From Saccoglossus kowalevskii (taxonomy: Eukaryota; Hemichordata; Enteropneusta; Harrimaniidae), in contig NW_003158231.1 in the NCBI RefSeq assembly GCF_000003605.2, forward strand, positions 74,315-117,007: DNA of 42,693 bases, written 5' to 3'. The notes under the pieces are model-generated. The model saw only the letters and a program-made list of their open reading frames with translations. It did not search any database and had not been told where the DNA came from. Of this stretch, positions 8,231 to 37,600 are shown one piece after another. A program made the translations under genes and the position numbers. Within the stretch, counting starts at the first letter, position 1. Each line of letters starts with the position of its first letter.

Positions 8231-11200
8231 GCGATTGGAAGGTATCGAAGGAGTAACTGGTCAAACCTCATATACTTGTGATTTCCGTTAGAAGAGCACA
8301 TAGGATTGTGGACAAATAAATACAAACCGCCCTTTAACTTATGTAAATTCGGTTAGGTTAACTATGATTACTGCGCGTTATCAAAACTTTGCTCAGACAA
8401 AAATTGAGGCAATTATCTTTTTAGACCAAACACATTACTAACAAATGAAACAATTATTCAATTCCTCAACACAGCTTAAACTGTTGAACCTTTCTAAGTT
8501 TTGTAATTATATTATTTAGCAGTTTTAATTGCTGTAATGGCTTTGTATATACTAGTATTACATTGTTTTGGGGCTAGTACTATTTATTTACCCAATCACA
8601 CGTATGCGCTGCTGCCCTGTATTCTTTCAGCATTGGAGTGCATGCAGTAATTTGGTCTCTAAACAATAGCTTGCTCTATGATAGGGTCATGAATCTATAA
8701 TGAGGCCAAGCATGTATACGTGATTATTACAACTAGTAGTATTCTAAAACAGTTCTGCATATTATATTAAATTTGAATTGTGCTTTTATATTTCGTTTTT
8801 GTAAGAGAGGAGTAATCTCACTATCCAGTAAGTTGATTTAAAACCGTTGTGCATGTCTTCGGTAGATGCACTTGTTTGAACTGAAATATGCGTCAAGATA
8901 ACGACACTTCAGCAACGTAATATTGTATTTATAATTCAGTGGATTGTATTTTGAGCATTTTTGACTGATTCTTACATTATTCATTTGTGTTTACATCGAT
9001 TGTGCCATAAACAATTATTTACTGTTCTTGGATATATAACTTTGACAGTGAGCAAATGTAAAAGTATGGTTTATTCAATGAAGATAAAGCAAGTTAGACG
9101 AAACTACTGCAGCCCTTCTCAGGCGTGTCCAGTCAGTCAAACAAAACATACGCGTTAGTTATGATATTTTAGTCTAATAGTAAAGATACAGAATCCGATC
9201 TCGGACAAGGAACCAGTGCATTTGACAGTCCCAGGAAACCTAGAGAGTCTTATGCACACCATTTGTTTACTCTAATATTCCTCAGTGCATGTACCTTATA
9301 CCTTTAACAAAGATTGAAAAAAGTCTATCTCTAATCGTACATTGCGCTGAACGACGAATTTAATGCTTATATTATGCTTTACCTTTATTTGTCAGCACGC
9401 ATATTTATCAGTGTACCATTTATTATCTTAAAATCGAAAGGTATTATTGATCTTTAATTTTGAAGTGTACGTTACTTGTTCAATAAATAAATATGATATA
9501 ACAATACATTCTTGAACGGGTATAGTCATTACTTTCATGTCATACGTGTTCAGTAAACAGAGGACTTCCATATTAAATACAATGGCAAAGCATGACACGA
9601 ATTGACACGTACAAACTTAATAGTACAAATTGTCGCTTCCACACAATTGCACAACATGTTTGATTAGATGACTTTATGCCATTCTTATTGTGAAATACCG
9701 ATTAGAACAGTTTACTGTTAATATACGATATACTGGTAGAAATGTCACCAAAATATCAGCATGCATCATTTAGGCAGCCCTTGATATCGTTTGTTCTCAT
9801 TTATTCATAAGTATGCAAATGTCTCATAAGAAATGCCATTTACTAATCGTTTTAAAAGATGCATATCGGCATACATATATGTGTATATAACAACCGTGAA
9901 CAACGTAACTGAATGAGCTTGTGCACAAAACGTAATCAAGTGTGACGACCTAGTATGTAGCCATAGCTTCCATCCTAGGTCCCAACACAAAGTGCAATCA
10001 ACAAATCAGAACTAACTTTACATGCCGTTAGTATATTACATAACTTATGAGAGTTATCAACGTTAAACGTTGTTAGAAAAACTGTAATCAGTTCACCGAT
10101 TGTTCTGTGGAGGGTGGTATCTCACATGGGANNNNNNNNNNNNNNNNNNNNNNNNNNNNNNNNNNNNNNNNNNNNNNNNNNAGCTGCCAATAGTTACAAT
10201 TTTGGTGACATGATATTCAGTATGAAAGACTTTGAACTGATACTTTATTCTCTGAATGATGAAGTGTAGACATTAATTGATTTTTGGGTCAATTGATGAA
10301 TATATGTGGATGTGCTTTCCTGGGGTCTGGCAGTGCAAGCACATCTCACGGTGTACACTGGATGAGGCCTCCATCTCGTAATGCTCTGTCGGAATGTATT
10401 GATTCAGTTAGTCAGAACTGTGATAGAGAACTTTGCCAATAAGTCTCCCATCCCATTACCAGATCTTTCAGCATAGTCTACGCTCATGGGTACCACCAGC
10501 ATCACGGCCAGCCGGTCGGTACCGAGTGCCCTGTGCTTGCATTGGGGTGGACTGTTTCTCTTATGAAGCTTCCTTTATCTTACCGTATTGAGATTTGTCC
10601 GTATCTGGAAGTGGAGGTTTAAGGTTACCGATCTCTCAGTGAACATCTTGTCATTACAAATACAGCTATTAACAACTGCATCACGTCTATCCGATTGGTA
10701 GGTGGCATACAGCACTACAATGTTCTGCAATAAAACATGCAGCTCAATAAAACATGCAGCAAATTTACCGGCCCTGGACGTTCCTGTCTTGATTTTGCTA
10801 GACTGAAAGTTTCGGCTGCATATTGCATATCGTTTGGGTAGTCATACTCGAACAACAATGAAAAAGGTATATAGAAAAATGTTGGCCGAGATCTGTATAA
10901 AATAGCGATGGGAAACATGCCAAATTTGCTTTGAAATTCGATCGTTGTAGCCGAGAGCTCGAAAAAAAGTGTCAAAACTACTCGTAAACGCTGACTATAA
11001 TATCGGACTGTCACGCATGTACAGGTCAAAGGTCATTATTCGAATACTAGTAGTTGAACTTTAATTATACATACTTAACGTATTGATGCACCATTTATGA
11101 AATATGAGGTCCCCCTAATCGTGTTTGAGAGGTAGCGAAATTGATGTGTTTGGTGTTGGGACTGCAGCATTATTTACATATGAGGGAAATCTTAGTGGCA

Positions 11201-18350: not shown

Positions 18351-18357
18351 TAACAAA

Positions 18358-18528
18358 TTAATCTGATAATCTTACAAACACATCAGTGTGGCATTCAATA
18401 GCACTGCCAGATTAATCTGATAATCTTACAAACACATCAGTATGGCATTCAATAGCACTGCCAGATTAATCTGATAATCTTACAAACACATCAGTGTGGC
18501 ATTCAATAGCACTGCCAGATTAATCTGA
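18358..18528. repeat. Tandem repeat, period 54, about 3.2 copies
   Basis: Copies begin with ATCTGATAAT at 18361, 18415 and 18469 and a truncated fourth at 18523. They are almost identical, with a single G/A difference in the GTGTGG/GTATGG word. The high identity implies recent expansion. Confidence 0.95.
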
Positions 18529-18529
18529 T

Positions 18530-19515: not shown

Positions 19516-19521
19516 TTTATT
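19516..19521 (-). terminator. Candidate poly(A) signal AATAAA of NuMA
   Basis: The minus strand reads AATAAA about 120 bases after the proposed stop. It is the first such hexamer in the presumed 3' untranslated region. Cleavage would fall near 19495-19505. Confidence 0.4.
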
Positions 19522-19639: not shown

Positions 19640-19657
19640 CTAGATATCAGTTTCTTT
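19640..19657 (-). CDS. NUMA1: NuMA exon 19 (terminal, KETDI-stop)
   Basis: After acceptor TATATTCCAG the in-phase reading is K-E-T-D-I then TAG. This is the first in-phase acceptor with a stop downstream of exon 18. The mini-exon is short, so an alternative distal terminal exon cannot be excluded. The end ETDI would fit a class I PDZ ligand. Confidence 0.6.
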   Translation of the reverse strand, partial: KETDI

Positions 19658-22600
19658 CTGGAATATAAAGTGAGCACAGATATATATGAAAGTTAGGAGG
19701 ACAATGAAATTACAAAATAATAGCATGCAGTGATTCTTAGAATCAGAATGTATGCAACCACACTGAGATGGAGTCCAGTGTGACAAGGAGGTTCACATAA
19801 CCACAAAATAGTTTTAATTATAATAATTTACCTTTTGCTTTGTCAACTTGGCTTTTCTCTTCTTTATTGGGGTGAATCCAATGCTGAAAGCTGTAGACTC
19901 GCAAGTTTCCTGTATTGAAAAAAAAGTAGAAAATAAGTAGTATCAATATTATTTATTTTGAGGACTAGGCACAGTGTCTCATGTTAATGATATAGCCCAG
20001 GCCACAGCTTCTGAAAACAATACAGCCTACACTACAGTTGCTGAAGTGTCTTGCTATCAACTATATAGCCTAGACCACAGTTTCTGTTGCATGTCACTGT
20101 CAACTTTATAGCCAAAGTTATATTTATTATGTCTCTGTGTCAACGATATGGCACAGGCCAAAGTTCCTGTAGTGTTTTGTTGCCAACTGTGTAGCCCAGA
20201 CAAGTGTGGTTAACAATGATACATCACGTTTGAATGTAATGGATCCAGACATGTCAAAGATAAAATATGGCTCATGAACAGTAAGAGTATGTCAGTGATA
20301 TGGCTCCAGAACTGCATTCACTAAAACAAAATGGTCACCAGTCAGCCATTTTGAGTCCAATCTGACAAACAAAATGATGTTCATTAAGGTTCAATATTGT
20401 CCAATGTTTGTATCAATCTATACCAAGATCCTGTTCAGGAATGACAGAAATGATTGCTATTTGGCCATCTGCAATTGAATCACAAAACCAGTTGATGTGC
20501 ATATGTATCCCAAGATGCATCATGTTTATATGATATTTGAATATGATCCGTGCAGACATGTCCAGCATACAGGTGGAGATGTACACATCCACAAAGGTCA
20601 AAACACAAGTCCCAATTTCCAGACTCTGTTCAAATGAGAACTAATTATTCCCATAATCCATGTGATGGCAACAGAATACCAGTGAATAAATCAACTATAA
20701 ACATCATACCTTTCTGTTATCATTCTTAGCCACTCTTAAACTTTTGCGGTTTTGTTTATCTTTTAATGGTGTAAAACCAACATCAAATGCTGTACACTCT
20801 TTGTTAATCCGCACAGTTTCCTGAATAAAAGACATTAATTTAAATTACTACATGCACAAGTAATACACTAAAAATATGTATGGATCGACAATTCTACATC
20901 AATCCAACTTTTAAATTTGAAATTGAAATGGAATTTAGTACTCTGTTATGACAAAATAAGCCACTGGGAAAGTCACAGTCCCTCTTTTTGTACTTGCTCC
21001 ATTTTTACAAGTTTAACTAAATTTATTGTGAAAATTCTCATGTATGTACCTATACCTGCTAGACAGCCATTTTTATAGGATTGTGACATAAATCAAATGG
21101 CATCTCTAAGAATAAATGCATTGCCTTTGTACTGTAGAATACTTTATCTTCATTTGGAATTTATTTCCACTATTTTCGCTGAAGGGATGATTCCGTGAAA
21201 ATAAAATCCAGTGAATATACTTTTTTTTCTATATTTCACATTCAACTCATCAAAAATCAGTGAAAATAAATTCCATAAAAAACACCCAAAAAGCCTTTTC
21301 AGCGAAAATTAATTCCAGCAAAAATAAAGTATTTTACAGTACTTAGTTTGAATAGACTTGGTGTGCCAACATGTTCCAAGTTAGAAGGATTTTGTCCGCA
21401 CAACTTTGTGATGATATACAAAACCTGTATTTTTTAAAGCCATATTTTGAGAATGAATATTGCTGCCAGTCAGCATTTTGAATCTGATCATAAACAAATC
21501 TGGAGCATACATATGTATGTACATATCACATGTATCAAATAAATGGAAAGTGTTGAAAACAGTCTATGAACAGTTGGTAAAATGTAACAGACTGGCAGAT
21601 AAATAAACAAATTGTAAACAAAGTACAAATGTACTGATAACTCGCAAAACTCCAAAAAAAAATATACAGTATAAAGATGCAACATATTAATCCGAAAACA
21701 CTACATAGAATACAGGGACAGGCAACTACAGTCTCTTGAGATTTGAATGTTAGCATACAAGATAACCTTCAAATTTGAGATGGCAAGTTACATTGTACAT
21801 GCAGAGAATACAAATATTAATCATGTTTTTCAATGGACGAATTTCAAAATAAATATTTTCAAAAACAGGTCACACAAACTACAGTGATAAGTGTGAATGG
21901 CAGTTGTGAATTTCTAGCGACGCACAGATCTTCTATTCCCTTTAATGTTTTCCGCAGTTGGATGTTCCTATATCTTAAATCCGTGATCAAACTTGTAACA
22001 TAGTCGCTTACCTTCTGGGCAGAAGTTGATTTTCTGGGAGTTACTCGACGAGTCTTGTTAGGTCTCTGCGACACTGAGGACCGCAGCTAGAAAAAAAAAA
22101 TTGTATTGTTGACCATGTTAATGTCATTGTAATGTGTGGTTTGAGAGACTGCTAGATTTATTTCACTTCTCGGGATGTTTTACTCACCCTTCTTCTTGCT
22201 CCATGATTTTTGTCATCAGACACAACAGCTTTCCTTTTTCTGACTTTCTCCTGATCTGTTTTATTTTTCAATGCATTCTCCTCAACCTTAGTTGGTGTAG
22301 CATGCTGGGTCTCAATGGGATATGCAGTTCTTAGATGTGGAGGACACAACGTGTTCCTACGTTGCATTTCTGATACTCTATTCCAATCAAAATGTTCAGG
22401 TTCATCCTCACAGCCTCCCATGAGTACAAAACCTGCCCTTCCTGTAGGATGCAAAGACATGACACGAATTACACAAAAAGGGAGGTGTCAATCGGTGAGA
22501 AAATGTGCCAGACCAACCTTTTCGGGTCAATTTGGGAGTGTTGATAAAAAACAATTATGCAAATAAATTGTGAATTTTCTTCAAACAGAGTGGCTACCAG

Positions 22601-25600: not shown

Positions 25601-28600
25601 AATGTTGACAAAATATTAGAATAGTTCATAGTAGTATTAATTTGATAGGAAACCACTCGGGGCCTTGCGAGATAAATATCAAACAAAGTTGCTGTAATGA
25701 ATTAATAAGAATAATTTAATGGAGAACAATGTCAGTGCCGTAGGGCTGCTTGGACTATTACATTGTATGTCAAGAATTTAAATGAATAAAGTTCCATTAA
25801 TTAGTTATTTTACATACTGGTACGAGACATTCAAAGTTTCAAATTAGTTTTCCCCCAATGAATGATGATACATTTCTCACCTCATTTTGCAAACTTTGCA
25901 GCTGAGTTGACAGATCAAGTTTCTCACGTTCATGTCGCCTCAATTTACTATTGGTCTCACCACAATGGCTTTCGTGTTTTGTTTGTAGAATGGTGTATTG
26001 ATTAACTAACTTTTGCAACTTGGTTTTATAGAGATCACCTCGACTGTCACTTTCTTGCAATTTTTTGTCAGTTTCTGCTTTATAACGATTGAAGCGACCC
26101 ATCTCGGACTGTGCCATCTCAATGGTCTGTTTTAACTCATCGTTCTCTTTGACTCTTTCATTGTATTTCATTCTTAGACTGACTATCTCAGAATCTTTTT
26201 GGCCGATTTCCTTGGTATATTTCAGTTTCAAATGATTTATTTCATTTTCTTGCTGCTTAGAAAGTTTATCAATTTTCTCTTTGAGGCAACACTCCTGTAA
26301 ATCATGTTCTTTTTGTGTCTTTTCCATTTCTACAATTTTCTTGTTTTTCTCCGCCAGATCTTTTTCATACTTGTTCTTTTCTTGTCGAGTGGTTTCCATT
26401 ATCTGTTGTTGCTGTTGTGATATGTCACGTAGTCTGCAATGGAATTCTTTTGTCAAACTGCGTTTATTTTGAGTCTCTGCATCATAATCTTTCTGTAAGC
26501 CAGTAATTTGTGTTCTTACTTCGGCTAGTTTTCTCTCATAGCTTGCTTCCATGACTGACATCTTATTCTGGTTTTGTTCTCTCTCAGCAGCCAAATGATT
26601 TTGCAACTCTACAATCTTAGAATTCAACACTACTTCCTTCTCACATAGCTGATTCTCAACACATTGCTTTTCTGAAGCCAGCTCAGCCAGTGTGGTTCTG
26701 AATTTAATTAATTTATTTTCATATGCTGCTTTCATGGTAGAAATCTCATTTTCCTTCTGTTCACATAAAGCAGTGTATTGTTCTTTTCGCTGCTTCTCTA
26801 AATTCTCCTTTTCTGACTCCAGATCAGATACTCTTTTTTCCAAAATAAATCCCAAGGATTCACCGCGCTGAACTTCTTCAGTAGCTGTTTTGGAATACAA
26901 CACAACATGGTACAGTTATTACGGCAGACAACAACAAGTTTAAATGGAAACTACCAATGTAAGTACAAGTCCAAATTAAGTTCATTTCAGCATTCAAACA
27001 AGGATTAAATACATTTAGAAAGTGGATATATAGCCAAAGGCTCTGTGCACTTTCATAGATGCTGGCTAATCAGTAAATTGATCGAGTGAATACAGTTAAA
27101 GTTTACAATCATAAATTGATGGTTTTCACTGCAGTGGAAATACTGCATAGAATCGGACAATTCATTTACCCAGCTCACTCACCTTGTTGGCAAATTCTTT
27201 CTTCAAGCTGTTGAATTTCATCTTTCAGTGCGTTTTCTCTCTCCTCTTTTAGACTTTGTAATTCGTCTTTTTCTTTGATAATATCTAGGATACTTTGTTT
27301 ATTCCTTTCACATTCTAGTCGTAGTTGATCGTGATGGTAGGTTTCCTCAGTCAGACGTTTTTGAAGTTGAGAATTCTCTATCTGCAAGGCCTCATTGTGT
27401 TTGGTCTGAAATCAAAAACGCCCATTCACAGTTNNNNNNNNNNNNNNNNNNNNNNNNNNNNNNNNNNNNNNNNNNNNNNNNNNNNNNNNNNNNNNNNNNN
27501 NNNNNNNNNNNNNNNNNNNNNNNNNNNNNNNNNNNNNNNNNNNNNNNNNNNNNNNNNNNNNNNNNNNNNNNNNNNNNNNNNNNNNNNNNNNNNNNNNNNN
27601 NNNNNNNNNNNNNNNNNNNNNNNNNNNNNNNNNNNNNNNNNNNNNNNNNNNNNNNNNNNNNNNNNNNNNNNNNNNNNNNNNNNNNNNNNNNNNNNNNNNN
27701 NNNNNNNNNNNNNNNNNNNNNNNNNNNNNNNNNNNNNNNNNNNNNNNNNNNNNNNNNNNNNNNNNNNNNNNNNNNNNNNNNNNNNNNNNNNNNNNNNNNN
27801 NNNNNNNNNNNNNNNNNNNNNNNNNNNNNNNNNNNNNNNNNNNNNNNNNNNNNNNNNNNNNNNNNNNNNNNNNNNNNNNNNNNNNNNNNNNNNNNNNNNN
27901 NNNNNNNNNNNNNNNNNNNNNNNNNNNNNNNNNNNNNNNNNNNNNNNNNNNNNNNNNNNNNNNNNNNNNNNNNNNNNNNNNNNNNNNNNNNNNNNNNNNN
28001 NNNNNNNNNNNNNNNNNNNNNNNNNNNNNNNNNNNNNNNNNNNNNNNNNNNNNNNNNNNNNNNNNNNNNNNNNNNNNNNNNNNNNNNNNNNNNNNNNNNN
28101 NNNNNNNNNNNNNNNNNNNNNNNNNNNNNNNNNNNNNNNNNNNNNNNNNNNNNNNNNNNNNNNNNNNNNNNNNNNNNNNNNNNNNNNNNNNNNNNNNNNN
28201 NNNNNNNNNNNNNNNNNNNNNNNNNNNNNNNNNNNNNNNNNNNNNNNNNNNNNNNNNNNNNNNNNNNNNNNNNNNNNNNNNNNTTCTTTGGAATTGTTCT
28301 AAAAATAACAATTTTCAAGAAATATTAGGACACGTTTCTTAAAAAGAGTAACTGTAACACAAAAAAACAAGTCACTGAAAATGACACAGTCCCCGTTAAA
28401 TTAAGTTCTCTTTGTGCTCATCATATTAAAGCGGAGGGGTTGTCGCGAGCGCGTCCTTGAAACTTGAGTTTCAAGTGGCGTATACAACAGATTGTTTATT
28501 TACATCAAAACACGTGTTCCGTGTAGTAGTAATATGGCCAAAAATAAAAACAGCTGTTATTCGGCCATCTTTGATCTGATTATGAAACACACTGATATGT

Positions 28601-31600
28601 ATGATGTACGTGCCATATACAAATGAAAATGGTACATAAATTGTGGAAATATAGTAGTAAGGCCAAAAAGTCAGATGGCTGTCAATCGGCTATCCTTAAC
28701 CAGATTTTGAAACAAATTGTCATGGACATGCATCCTAACATGTATAAGTACATGTATGTGCCAAATTTTAATGAAAACTGACAGAGCATGTCAGATACCG
28801 CATAAAAAAAAAAAATGCCTGCCAGTCGACCGTCTTTGATCCAATTGTGAAATAAATCGTCATGGACATGTATTCTAACATATAAAATCTATGTACCAAG
28901 TTTGAATGACAACTGACAAAGCATGTCCAAAATACAACATTTTCAAAAAACAAGATGGCTGTCAGTTGGCCATTTTGAATCAAATTGCTAAACCACAGAA
29001 TGTGCACATGTCCCACATGCAAAGAATGAACGGAATCGGTCCACAGGATTCTGAAATATGACTCTGGACAGACTGAGGGACGGACGAACACACAGACGAA
29101 CGGACTCAGGAACTCACGGACAGTCGGGGACATGTATCCTAACATGTATGATCTATGTACTAAATTTGAATGAAAACTGACAAAGCATGTTCAAAATACG
29201 ACATTTTCAAAAAACAAGATGGCTGCCAGTCGGCCATCTTTGATCCAATTGTGAAATAAATCATCATTGACATGTATCCTAACATGTGTAATCTATGTAC
29301 CAAGTTTGAATGAAAACTGACAAAGCATGTCCAAAATACAACATTTTCAAAAAACAAGATGGCTGCCAGTCGGCCATTTTGAATGGAATCACTAAACCAC
29401 TGCATGTGCATACGTCTCACATAAAGTACTTGGCACATGCAAAGAATGAACGGAATCGGTCCAAGGAATTCTGGGATACGACTCCGGGTGGACGCACAGA
29501 CGGACGGAGACCGAATTATAAGTCCCTGTTTTCGGACTTCGTCCGAACGGGGACTAATAATACTATTTTATTGTACCACGAGACAACAGCTCCATGAATT
29601 TACGTAATAGACCAATGAACATTGTCATGTGATTTATGACCAATTTTCTCAAAAATTATGAGTAGGCTTCTTTCTACCTCAAGGGAACAAATGCCAAAAA
29701 AATGATTTCCATCTGCAGTGGCTCACTCATGAACCCATAGATTTTCAATCTTCAAAACTCAATCAGACGCACAATGCAATTGCCATCTGTATTTTTTTCA
29801 AATTACCAGTAAGTCGATTAAGACAATTATACATATATCAATATTGCTGCTAACAAGAAACTACACGAATAAACACCGCAATGTCAAAATACACTGGCAA
29901 ATTTGTGCCACCACCATGGGCCCATTTTTATTATACCACGGTTGCAAGTAGAACATTTCAGTGCTTACAATCATGGTGAATCTGTTTAATAATATTGAAC
30001 ACAGATTGGCAATGAAGTCATTATCATTTATCAATTTCCTTCTTCTAATAAATATTTACCCTCGGTCATGAAAAATTGGATTGATTCGGTGACCAAGTAA
30101 CAAAGAAACATATGCATGCTTCAATAAAGCCAGTCATTGTAATCACACACTATCTGTGAATTCTGAAAGTAGTTTATAAATTAATAAACGCTGCTGGGAT
30201 TGATAAATGTGATATATAGAAGATAATATTTGGTAATTAGTCCTAAGTTTAATAGTTACTTAGGACGATTACTGAATGTTATCTTCTATATATCTGTAAA
30301 TTCTGATATCCACTCAACTCTACAATACATATTATTACATTGAATGTTCATTACAACAGTTGTCAACATAATTAATAAAGTTCATAATATTATTATTTGC
30401 CCATTGTTTTTTACATATTCCAGTGTGAAAGTTTTGTAGAAATGTTCTGAATGTGCAATTGAAGCAGCAATGTTATTTACGTCCCTGGTTGAAAACAAGA
30501 CATGGAATTTCTTTGTCTGTTTTGCTTTCAACAAGTGTATCAAAAGCTGGCATTTGTGAATAAATGCATGTACACCATGCACAATAACAGCAAGACTGTT
30601 GAACTATTCCTAGAGTAACTCATCAATGCAATACTGTAAAGGGGGTAATTATTCACTGGGTTTTAATTTAGCTTATTGCGCTGACTGGAAAATGCGCTAA
30701 ATTAAAACACAGTGAATATGTAAAATTTAGCATAGAACACATTATCTAAATGATAAAACCGTGAATTTAAAAACCCACTGAATATGCCTGAAATGGTAAA
30801 TCAGTGAAATTTAAACCCAGTGAAAATTAGTCATTTTACAGTATATCTACCGGTATGTATAATCTAATGAAAATACATAAAGACCAATTGAAACTTGGAA
30901 TTTAGTGTTATAAATAAAGGTACTCTACAAAACCATATGACTATATTGTTGGCAATCATTGATAGACACCACACCATATCACTAAGGCTGTTGTCATGGC
31001 GATGCTATTGTGTACGAATAATCAGATGCTCACTTTGCTATCTCATCCTGTGCTTCTTTCACGGCAAGTTTACTGGTTTTCAGATCATCTTCAACAAAGC
31101 GCAGATGCTGCAAGCCCTTTACTTCACTCTTTAGTTGATCAATTTTGCAATCTATTGAGAAAAAAAAAGAAAGAATTACAATTATATAAATTTAGACAGT
31201 TTCAAATGACAAATGCAAAAAAATATTCATCCAATGTTTTGAGTGTTTGGTATAACTGAGTAAAACCTCAGATAGTTATGTATCATTTTTGTTTAAGTGC
31301 ATCATTTCTGATGAATCATTGCGATTTTATTCAGCAAATTTTAGCAAAGTTGAATTAAGAGCATAAAATAAGTACACTATAAAATGATTGATTTTATGGC
31401 AGTCAAAAAATATTTGCCAGAAATGGGGATGGATGATCTAAGGAAGCAGTTAAAGTAATGTAGCTTTCATGGTACACTTCAGCCTCGTTATAACGAACTC
31501 TTTGAGAGACATACAATTAGTTTATTATAGTGAAATATTCACTATAATGAAGCACATAATACATTGGGTTTGTTGTGAGCGGGAGACACGGTATGTGTTC

Positions 31601-34600: not shown

Positions 34601-37600
34601 ATTAATATACTTCTATACACCACAAAAACATTCTGCATACCACATTTTATATTATTGCATTTTTTGTTTCACAAAGGAGAATGGCATAAAGCATTTTATA
34701 TTATTGCATTTTTTGTTTCACAAAGGAGAATGGCATAAAGCATTTTATATTATTGCATTTTTTGTTTCACAAAGGAGAATGGCATAAAGCATTTTAAAAC
34801 TATACTTGCAGCTGTCCATAAAATATTGCAAGACAACAGGGAATGTCATGTTTTAACTTTTACAGCCCAACCGTAAAGTTACTGTCTCAGGCATACTAAG
34901 GCAGTAATTTGAAACCTGTCCTACACTCAACATATTGTATCTCTAATAAAAGTGTATATATAAACCTAAAATCACACTGGCTGTGAACTAAATCATTAAA
35001 ATAATACTTAATTTGATCATAGAAATGTATGTAAAAAATTAGGTATGTGCTTTGAATATAGCCAATATGGTACCTTCATCATGGCAAGGGAGATCCAACA
35101 CATCTGCAAAGTCAGGTCTTAATCCAGTGGCAGGCGATTCAACAAGTATAAATTCAATGATGTGTTTCATATTCATCTGGGACTCTTCATCTAAACCTAG
35201 AATAACTTGAACAAACTCTCCTTTCTTCTCACATTCCACCGATTGACAAACCAACAACGCACAAACTTTACCAATCTCCCTCTCAGCCTGCTCAAAAAAG
35301 ATGCGAGACCAACTAATCTGTGGTTTCTGGTCACTATAGCAACCTGGAAAACAAATTCACATTCTGAGCATAAATGCCCCTGAAATAGAAACAAATTTTC
35401 GGAAACGCATACACTATCGTAGTACAATTTAGATAACATGGTAGACCTAAAATATAAAGTTGAAATACGTAATGCTCATTGGAGTCGGGCAGTAACAAAA
35501 TGATTGGTTGTTCATAAGACTAAATATTGACGTAATTTGACCAATGCATTATATACAAGCATTGCAAGATATGTACATACGCGTGTTGTACAAACATTAT
35601 ATAGAATGCGGTGTGATATTCCATCAAGTTTAGAAAATGCAATATTTATGAAAACACACATCTTTCATACATAATTATCCTAATTTCAAACAGTTGAAAT
35701 ATTACATTCCACAATAATAAACAGTCCAAACATACAATCAACATTAGTACAATTGAGTTGTTTCACAGGCAAGGAAACTACTTGTTCTTAAGGTGTTACA
35801 ACTGTTGATTATTACTCAGTCATGATAATAATAACATACATTGTACAAAAAATTAATTTTTTTGGATTGTTATGAAATGAAAGTATAAATTAACATTCAG
35901 ACAAACACTTAATGCAAAACAATATCCACCATGTTTCTTTTATACACTGACCTGATAGAATAAGCCACTTATTTCAGAATATCAACAATAGCAAATGCAA
36001 AAGTTTTATCGATATTGAAATTAAGTTTTTGGCATTCATATTGGTTGAAAAAAAAGGTATAATTATTTCACCGTGACAACAGCTAATTCTCAAACAGTCA
36101 TTCACCATATACAATTAGCATCATACTCTTAAATAGTAATTTCCGAAAGAAAAAAATTTGATGCATAAATTAGAATACTTGTGATAATACGAGGTTATTA
36201 TTATGTGTGGGGTCCAGTCAAACCCTGGGGGCAGCCATGTTTTTTTTTATTGTTTTATTCCATATTTAGAATTTGTGTTTCTTAATATGGTAGAATGAAA
36301 CTGTACGCTGTGACTTATGTCGTTACGGTGACAGATGTATAATAATTTTCAATTAATATTGTTGTTTAATACTATTGTGAATAAATTTATTGGATTATGA
36401 TTTCATCAAACCTAAAATGAAATAATGATGTTTACTTGCCTCGCAGATAGCTTAATACCAACTTGAGTCTTTCTTTGGGATCTTCATGGTCTTCAATTTC
36501 CCCATCACTAAATATTCATCATCAAGTACAAGAAAAATCAATCATGTAAAAAACTATGTCAAATAACTTTGTAGGCCTGTTTACCCCAGTTTTTAACAGG
36601 TTGAACATGTAGACACAATTGTAACCACCCACCCCGCCCATCCTGCTATTCATAGCTCAGTAAACCTTTTATAACAATTACTGACTAAAAAGTAAAAAGG
36701 TGAAAAACAATGGAAATATAACATGATATTGTGTATTCACAAACTATTACTTTAGTGCCTAAGCTTACATACAATTGTGTTGTATTATACATATGCAGGT
36801 TACGGACACTTATGCAATTATGTGACTTTGCTAATTAGTGGAAATGTGTATACTCACATTCTTCTCGTTACCTCCAGGAGAAAACTGCCATCCCAAAGTT
36901 GCTCCAATCTCTCAATGGCATTATTGTTAAGTGCATTAACCTGAAAATATTTTAAATAATGCATGCTAGTATAATGGAATACATGCAGTGATACAGTGAA
37001 ACTACCAATCAACATGTACATGTATAAACACATTAATGATTACAATGTAAAAATCACTAACATGAATTTCACATAACATGTGTGTATGCAGATAGGTCAA
37101 TGATCTTGGTGTGGTAAAATGATACAAAGTATGTTTGCTAACCACATACATGTAAGTTTTAAACACAAACTTATTTGCATTGATTAGTTCTAAATTTTAG
37201 AAGGAATATGAAAATAACTGTCACAAAGTATTGGATATAGCACATCACCTACTGACATGCTATCAGTGAATGCTTTCAAACGATAGGAATGTTTTATTAG
37301 GATTTATTTAGTCAGGTCTTGAATGAATAATACAAATGTAAACATGTATTACATGATGTGTAAAAATAAATTTGAACATGTCTGCCCAAGCATGTCATTT
37401 CTCTAAATCAATGGGACTACCGGTATGACCATGGATAAAAATCCCGCAAAAATGAACTATCTCGGTATACTGTATAGCTTTTGATCAATTTGCAACACAC
37501 GTTCATGATTTTTATCGCATTGGCGTCACCCATTAATAATGCTCATATGGCCAACGAATTGTAAACTGGTTAATTTTATTTGTATTGATCATTTTTTGAA

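Follow-up and report, generated by a model that had tools for sequence, protein, structure and literature searches.

Two related CDK-consensus exons in the tail of a NuMA-like gene of the acorn worm Saccoglossus kowalevskii, possibly copies from an old duplication within a multisite charge switch

Two neighbouring exons, 17 and 18, of a NuMA-like gene of the acorn worm Saccoglossus kowalevskii are related in sequence, each encoding a threonine-proline site of the full CDK consensus followed by basic residues, in a protein tail with four such sites. With a confidence just short of even, we read the pair as encoding one short linear motif, T-A-F-x-[I/V]-G-F-T-P-[L/I]-K with a basic run after it, in two homologous copies, which would have arisen by an old duplication within a single NuMA gene and would now form part of a multisite CDK1/PP2A-B55 charge switch.

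The gene lies on the minus strand of the window (the whole stretch of 42,693 nucleotides analysed) and is, on its matches, NuMA-like (Table 1; exon numbers are those of the original prediction). In PDB, the LGN-binding peptide encoded by exon 15 hits chains of human NuMA (6hc2_B, E = 2.5e-4; 3ro2_B, E = 4.9e-4), and the peptide together with the NLM-like stretch (CPPHL-T-YP-E) is invariant relative to human in 24 of 39 columns, the second half of the human sequence being provisional. The intron ahead of exon 15 is of phase 1, and the two bases that open this exon finish a codon. For the upstream open stretch, the best Pfam family was PF21670, HOOK_N_NuMA (E = 4.1e-5; its 23.8 bits fall short of the curated threshold of 27), accompanied by weak PDB matches to Hook proteins, the best of them to Hook homolog 3 (E = 0.026); for the NuMA tail, which is probably disordered, Pfam gave no family even with the E limit raised to 1. 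Outside exons 15-19 and the Hook stretch, the gene was inspected by eye. A 358-residue open stretch resembles a coiled coil on such inspection, and the Pfam matches there all fall below cut-off. There are runs of N at 27434-28283 (850 bases) and 10132-10181 (50 bases); a portion of the gene may be missing at the longer run, since it adjoins coiled-coil coding sequence. The gene is present as a single copy in the species' own assembly (572,110,611 bases, 4830 contigs), where two matches were obtained at E <= 0.001, namely exons 17 and 18 themselves, with no further copy beyond these two.

Table 1 Features of the NuMA-like gene, listed from the N-terminal to the C-terminal end of the protein.
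Feature	Position in window	Strand	Basis or remark
Open stretch towards the N-terminal end, with a putative partial Hook domain of NuMA type; positions are those of the open stretch	35042..35356	-	Pfam, PDB
Exon 15: LGN-binding peptide, NLM-like stretch, ATPTK site, basic cluster KVRKRKAV	22188..22441	-	Borders and translation
LGN-binding peptide MGGCEDEPEHFDWNRVSEMQRRN, inside exon 15	22353..22421	-	PDB match; coordinates counted by hand
Exon 16, phase 0-0, 25 codons, VTPRK site	22012..22086	-	Unrelated to exons 17 and 18
Exon 17, phase 0-0, 37 codons, 111 nt, ETVRINKECTAFDVGFTPLKDKQNRKSLRVAKNDNRK, core ECTAFDVGFTPLK	20710..20820	-	AG before, GT after
Exon 18, phase 0-0, 26 codons, 78 nt, ETCESTAFSIGFTPIKKRKAKLTKQK, core ESTAFSIGFTPIK, basic run KKRKAKLTKQK	19832..19909	-	AG before, GT after
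Probable final coding exon (KETDI plus stop)	19640..19657	-	3' splice site and frame
Probable poly(A) signal AATAAA, 119 nt past the stop	19516..19521	-	Sequence

The basic cluster KVRKRKAV of exon 15 resembles, by eye, a nuclear localisation signal; invertebrate NuMA-related proteins are described in a review as non-nuclear, unlike vertebrate NuMA (PMC8047419). Downstream of the gene, a tandem array occupies 18357-18529 (54-base unit, 3.2 copies, 98% matches). On the plus strand there are open stretches at 130-1164 (344 codons) and 1763-2149 (128 codons), which may be pieces of a retroelement.

The original prediction described exons 17 and 18 as phase 0-0 neighbours, related in sequence, with a shared core and basic residues after it; all of this was borne out, and the range 19832-20820 is exact. 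Local alignment pairs ECTAFDVGFTPLKDKQ of exon 17 with ESTAFSIGFTPIKKRK of exon 18 at a BLOSUM62 score of 55, which was reached by none of 5000 shuffles; when 15-mers were anchored on T-P, 8 of 15 residues were identical, and with these two residues held in place no shuffle out of 20,000 scored as high. Among the 83,323 six-frame 15-mers of the window that are free of N, each core used as query ranks first on itself and second, with a score of 50, on the other exon; the remaining 15-mers reach no more than 24 for the exon 17 core and 32 for the exon 18 core. Similarly, in the 21 pairs formed by 7 chosen coding segments (the coiled coil trimmed to 40 residues), exons 17 and 18 score 55 and the next pair 34. 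Chance likeness was thus ruled out by the shuffles, the six-frame scan and the segment-pair scores. Exon 16 was considered as a third copy and rejected: its scores against exons 17 and 18 were 18 and 18, matched by 2848 and 2255 of 5000 shuffles, respectively. No third or dead copy was seen elsewhere in the window, where the best other match to an averaged profile scored 22, compared to 66.5 and 62.5 for exons 17 and 18, the two exons from which the profile itself was built.

The likeness is limited to about 13-16 residues, with no clear DNA likeness beyond, as would be expected if the two cores had converged on one binding motif, in the absence of any exon duplication. We regard such convergence as quite improbable: nine shared residues in register, together with matching exon starts (both ET) and matching phases, are more easily produced by duplication.

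The nine identical residues of the aligned core (the eight in the 15-mer plus the preceding E) are encoded by the same codon in three cases; by simple arithmetic, free choice among two or four synonymous codons would give about 3.25. Because the codon is shared at only 3 of 9 residues, the duplication appears to be old and may be ancestral. If there was a duplication, it was then presumably old, with the core kept by selection at the protein level. The near flanks of the two exons are also unlike each other: on the upstream side (200 nt), shuffles aligned as well in 176 of 200 cases, and on the downstream side (170 nt) in 52 of 200. A recent tandem duplication is therefore not supported, given the saturated codons and the unlike near flanks. 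Two results run mildly against an old duplication: the exons extended by 150 nt at either end were matched by 13 of 200 shuffles, and whole introns 16 and 17 scored 34, above all 200 single-base shuffles (maximum 31). Short direct repeats present in both introns, for example at 20338-20367, 21059-21088 and 21466-21479, may account for the intron score; by eye, these repeats resemble an element seen several times in the six-frame translation of 28685-29567.

The human and mouse tail residues used in all comparisons are provisional, and the human ones found no match in PDB sequences or paper texts. The original prediction likened the core of both exons to the region around human T2055; for exon 18 this was upheld at nominal significance, and for exon 17 it was not. 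In comparison with the provisional T2055 block, the score of 30 obtained for exon 18 was equalled or exceeded by 112 and 47 of 20,000 shuffles (one count for each side shuffled), and the score of 23 for exon 17 by 3454 and 1872; with T and P fixed, the respective counts were 275 and 1036 of 20,000. Against a longer piece of the provisional human tail, the exon 18 score was reached by 3 of 5000 shuffles and the exon 17 score by 774 of 5000. Thus, the AFSI--TP--K likeness is nominally present in exon 18 and is not separable from chance in exon 17. Like the human T2055 region, the two exons are distal to the LGN-binding and NLM stretches and carry a CDK-consensus threonine with basic residues, and exon 18 shares the pattern AF-S-I--T-P--K with the provisional human letters; unlike in human, the core is present twice in the acorn worm gene, in separate exons, of which exon 17 is not significantly similar.

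Exon 18 need not be a second copy of the T2055 site, because it fits the provisional human C-terminal end better, with a score of 42 (0 and 1 of 20,000 shuffles); the fit of exon 17 to that end scores 24 (129 and 215). When T and P were kept fixed, the human end was matched equally well by 12 of 20,000 shuffles for exon 18, by 119 for exon 17 and by 494 for the T2055 block. In six-frame scans, exon 18 was the best match for the T2055 block (24 vs. 22 for the next) and for the human end (33 vs. 22); the provisional mouse end gave a tie at 21 in one register and missed the exons in the other. Global alignment of the S. kowalevskii tail with the provisional human tail places exon 17 on T2055 and exon 18 on the C-terminal T-P, which we take to be T2106; a literature search found no paper pairing NuMA with T2106. 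The extreme human C-terminus, in its provisional form, resembles exon 18, whose best-scoring match it is, in having a T-P followed by a lysine-rich end, and differs from it in being alanine-rich ahead of the T-P, with no AF core. The collinear reading appears to be at least as good as the likeness of the exons to the T2055 block. NuMA tails were also sought in viral contigs, where 13 and 22 stretches fitted a pattern and none was confirmed, and in prokaryote genomes, where one of 6 pattern stretches was confirmed (in a Gemmatimonadales contig, L001, with 15 matched residues) and was read as chance.

These comparisons bear on two other accounts of how the pair originated. The tail may have had two sites since ancient times, with exon 17 as the counterpart of human T2055 and exon 18 as that of the extreme C-terminal T-P, such that nothing was doubled in this lineage and human NuMA retains a worn second copy. 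This would rival the origin proposed here and is compatible with the switch; it draws on the higher score of exon 18 at the human end than at the T2055 block, on the partial fit of exon 17 to that same end, on the likeness between the two human blocks with T-P fixed, on the collinear global alignment and on the synonymous saturation. Given that the human end is alanine-rich and provisional, that the mouse end does no better than tie in one register, and that the link between exon 17 and T2055 is weak, we consider both the ancient two-site tail and the worn human copy possible, on the unlikely side. The account given in the original prediction, a lineage-specific tandem duplication of the T2055-site exon that doubled the switch, gains from the adjacency, equal phases and common core of the exons, from the first place of exon 18 in the T2055-block scan of all the 15-mers, and from the scores of the introns and of the exons with their 150-nt flanks. 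It must nevertheless accommodate saturated codons, unlike near flanks, unequal exon lengths (111 vs. 78 nt), an exon 17 that is not significantly T2055-like and an intron score that conceivably stems from repeats common to both introns; accordingly, it too seems to us rather doubtful.

As had been predicted, the frame is kept if either exon is skipped, each being of phase 0 at both ends, which would suit alternative use of the two (as cassette or mutually exclusive exons) to give tails with one or two sites. However, the phase symmetry is not peculiar to this pair, since phase 0 is found at every one of the four junctions 15|16, 16|17, 17|18 and 18|19, and exon 16 could be skipped just as neutrally; it is weak evidence for alternative exon use. 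The splice borders look canonical as well, and we find alternative use improbable.

The prediction of CDK-type sites with basic residues behind them in both exons also proved right, the full consensus T-P-x-K/R being present in each as T-P-x-K. In the 147-residue tail, taken from the NLM stretch to the stop (a starting point picked after the sequence had been seen), there are four S/T-P sites, and all four are full T-P-x-K sites; in the provisional human tail, by contrast, T2055 is the only site of this form. Shuffling of the tail gave an expectation of 0.36 full sites, with four reached by 1 of 20,000 shuffles, and at least four S/T-P of any kind in 564 of 20,000. Behind the four T-P sites, taken in order, the residues at +2 to +13 carry a net charge of +1, +3, +4 and +7.

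In human NuMA, T2055 is called well conserved in a review, according to which its phosphorylation by CDK in metaphase inhibits cortical association and PP2A-B55gamma dephosphorylates the protein in anaphase (PMC8047419). PP2A-B55 is reported to prefer T-P with basic residues from +2 (PMC8370769); by sequence alone, the S. kowalevskii sites resemble such substrates in the threonine, the proline at +1 and the basic residues from +2. Another NuMA-related protein, C. elegans LIN-5, has several CDK consensus sites, of which T168 and T181 are phosphorylated by CDK1 in vitro; they differ from the sites described here in lying in the dynein-binding N-terminal part and in not forming a tandem tail motif (PMC5053539).

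For the charge switch with two old motif copies, which we prefer, we infer the phosphorylation, the phosphatase, the effect on localisation and the gain from doubling as follows. The two copies would have arisen by old duplication and been retained, both of them, at the protein level. Up to metaphase, CDK1-cyclin B would phosphorylate the tail threonines beside the basic runs; the phosphates would weaken membrane binding by the basic tail and might alter how this tail contacts microtubules, DNA or the autoinhibited end that binds dynein. At anaphase, PP2A-B55 would strip the phosphates, upon which NuMA would load on the cortex, and two related sites in a set of four could make this release more threshold-like than one site would. 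The relatedness of the cores, the saturated codons under a conserved core, the T-P-x-K form of every site, the net charges, the single gene copy in the assembly and the literature on human T2055 and on PP2A-B55 preference argue for such a switch; the lack of significant likeness between exon 17 and the provisional T2055 block and the possibility of motif convergence over 13 residues argue against it. One of the contacts named, that with microtubules, may not be under this control, because the phosphomimetic T2055D relieved autoinhibition towards dynein and left microtubule binding without marked change in one in-vitro study (PMC11623564).

Provided that the last exon is correctly assigned, the predicted C-terminus is ETDI, by sequence a PDZ ligand of the Dlg type: type-I ligands have S/T-x-I/L/V at the C-terminus, the Dlg family prefers glutamate at -3 (PMC3138430), and ETDI fits on both counts. 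The provisional human end, in contrast, reads GKAKH, and human NuMA presumably lacks a PDZ ligand of this kind. According to work reviewed in PMC8047419, LGN in its phosphorylated form is a binding partner of Dlg1, and both LGN and NuMA depend on Dlg1 for their presence at the cortex; a direct link between NuMA and Dlg is a lead rather than a finding. Going further, NuMA could ancestrally have had two tandem switch motifs, of which human T2055 would be one and the human C-terminal T-P the worn twin, with both intact here ahead of ETDI, such that a direct connection between NuMA and Dlg, independent of LGN, could be under the control of the CDK1 sites together with the basic run; we rate this combined proposal as highly improbable.

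A doubled T2055-like site is not described in the titles and abstract openings of the literature matches listed. Human T2055 is the site by which CDK1 holds back cortical NuMA until anaphase. If an animal tail carries two such related copies, either the switch was ancestrally double, which would make the second human site of interest, or its threshold has changed in this lineage.
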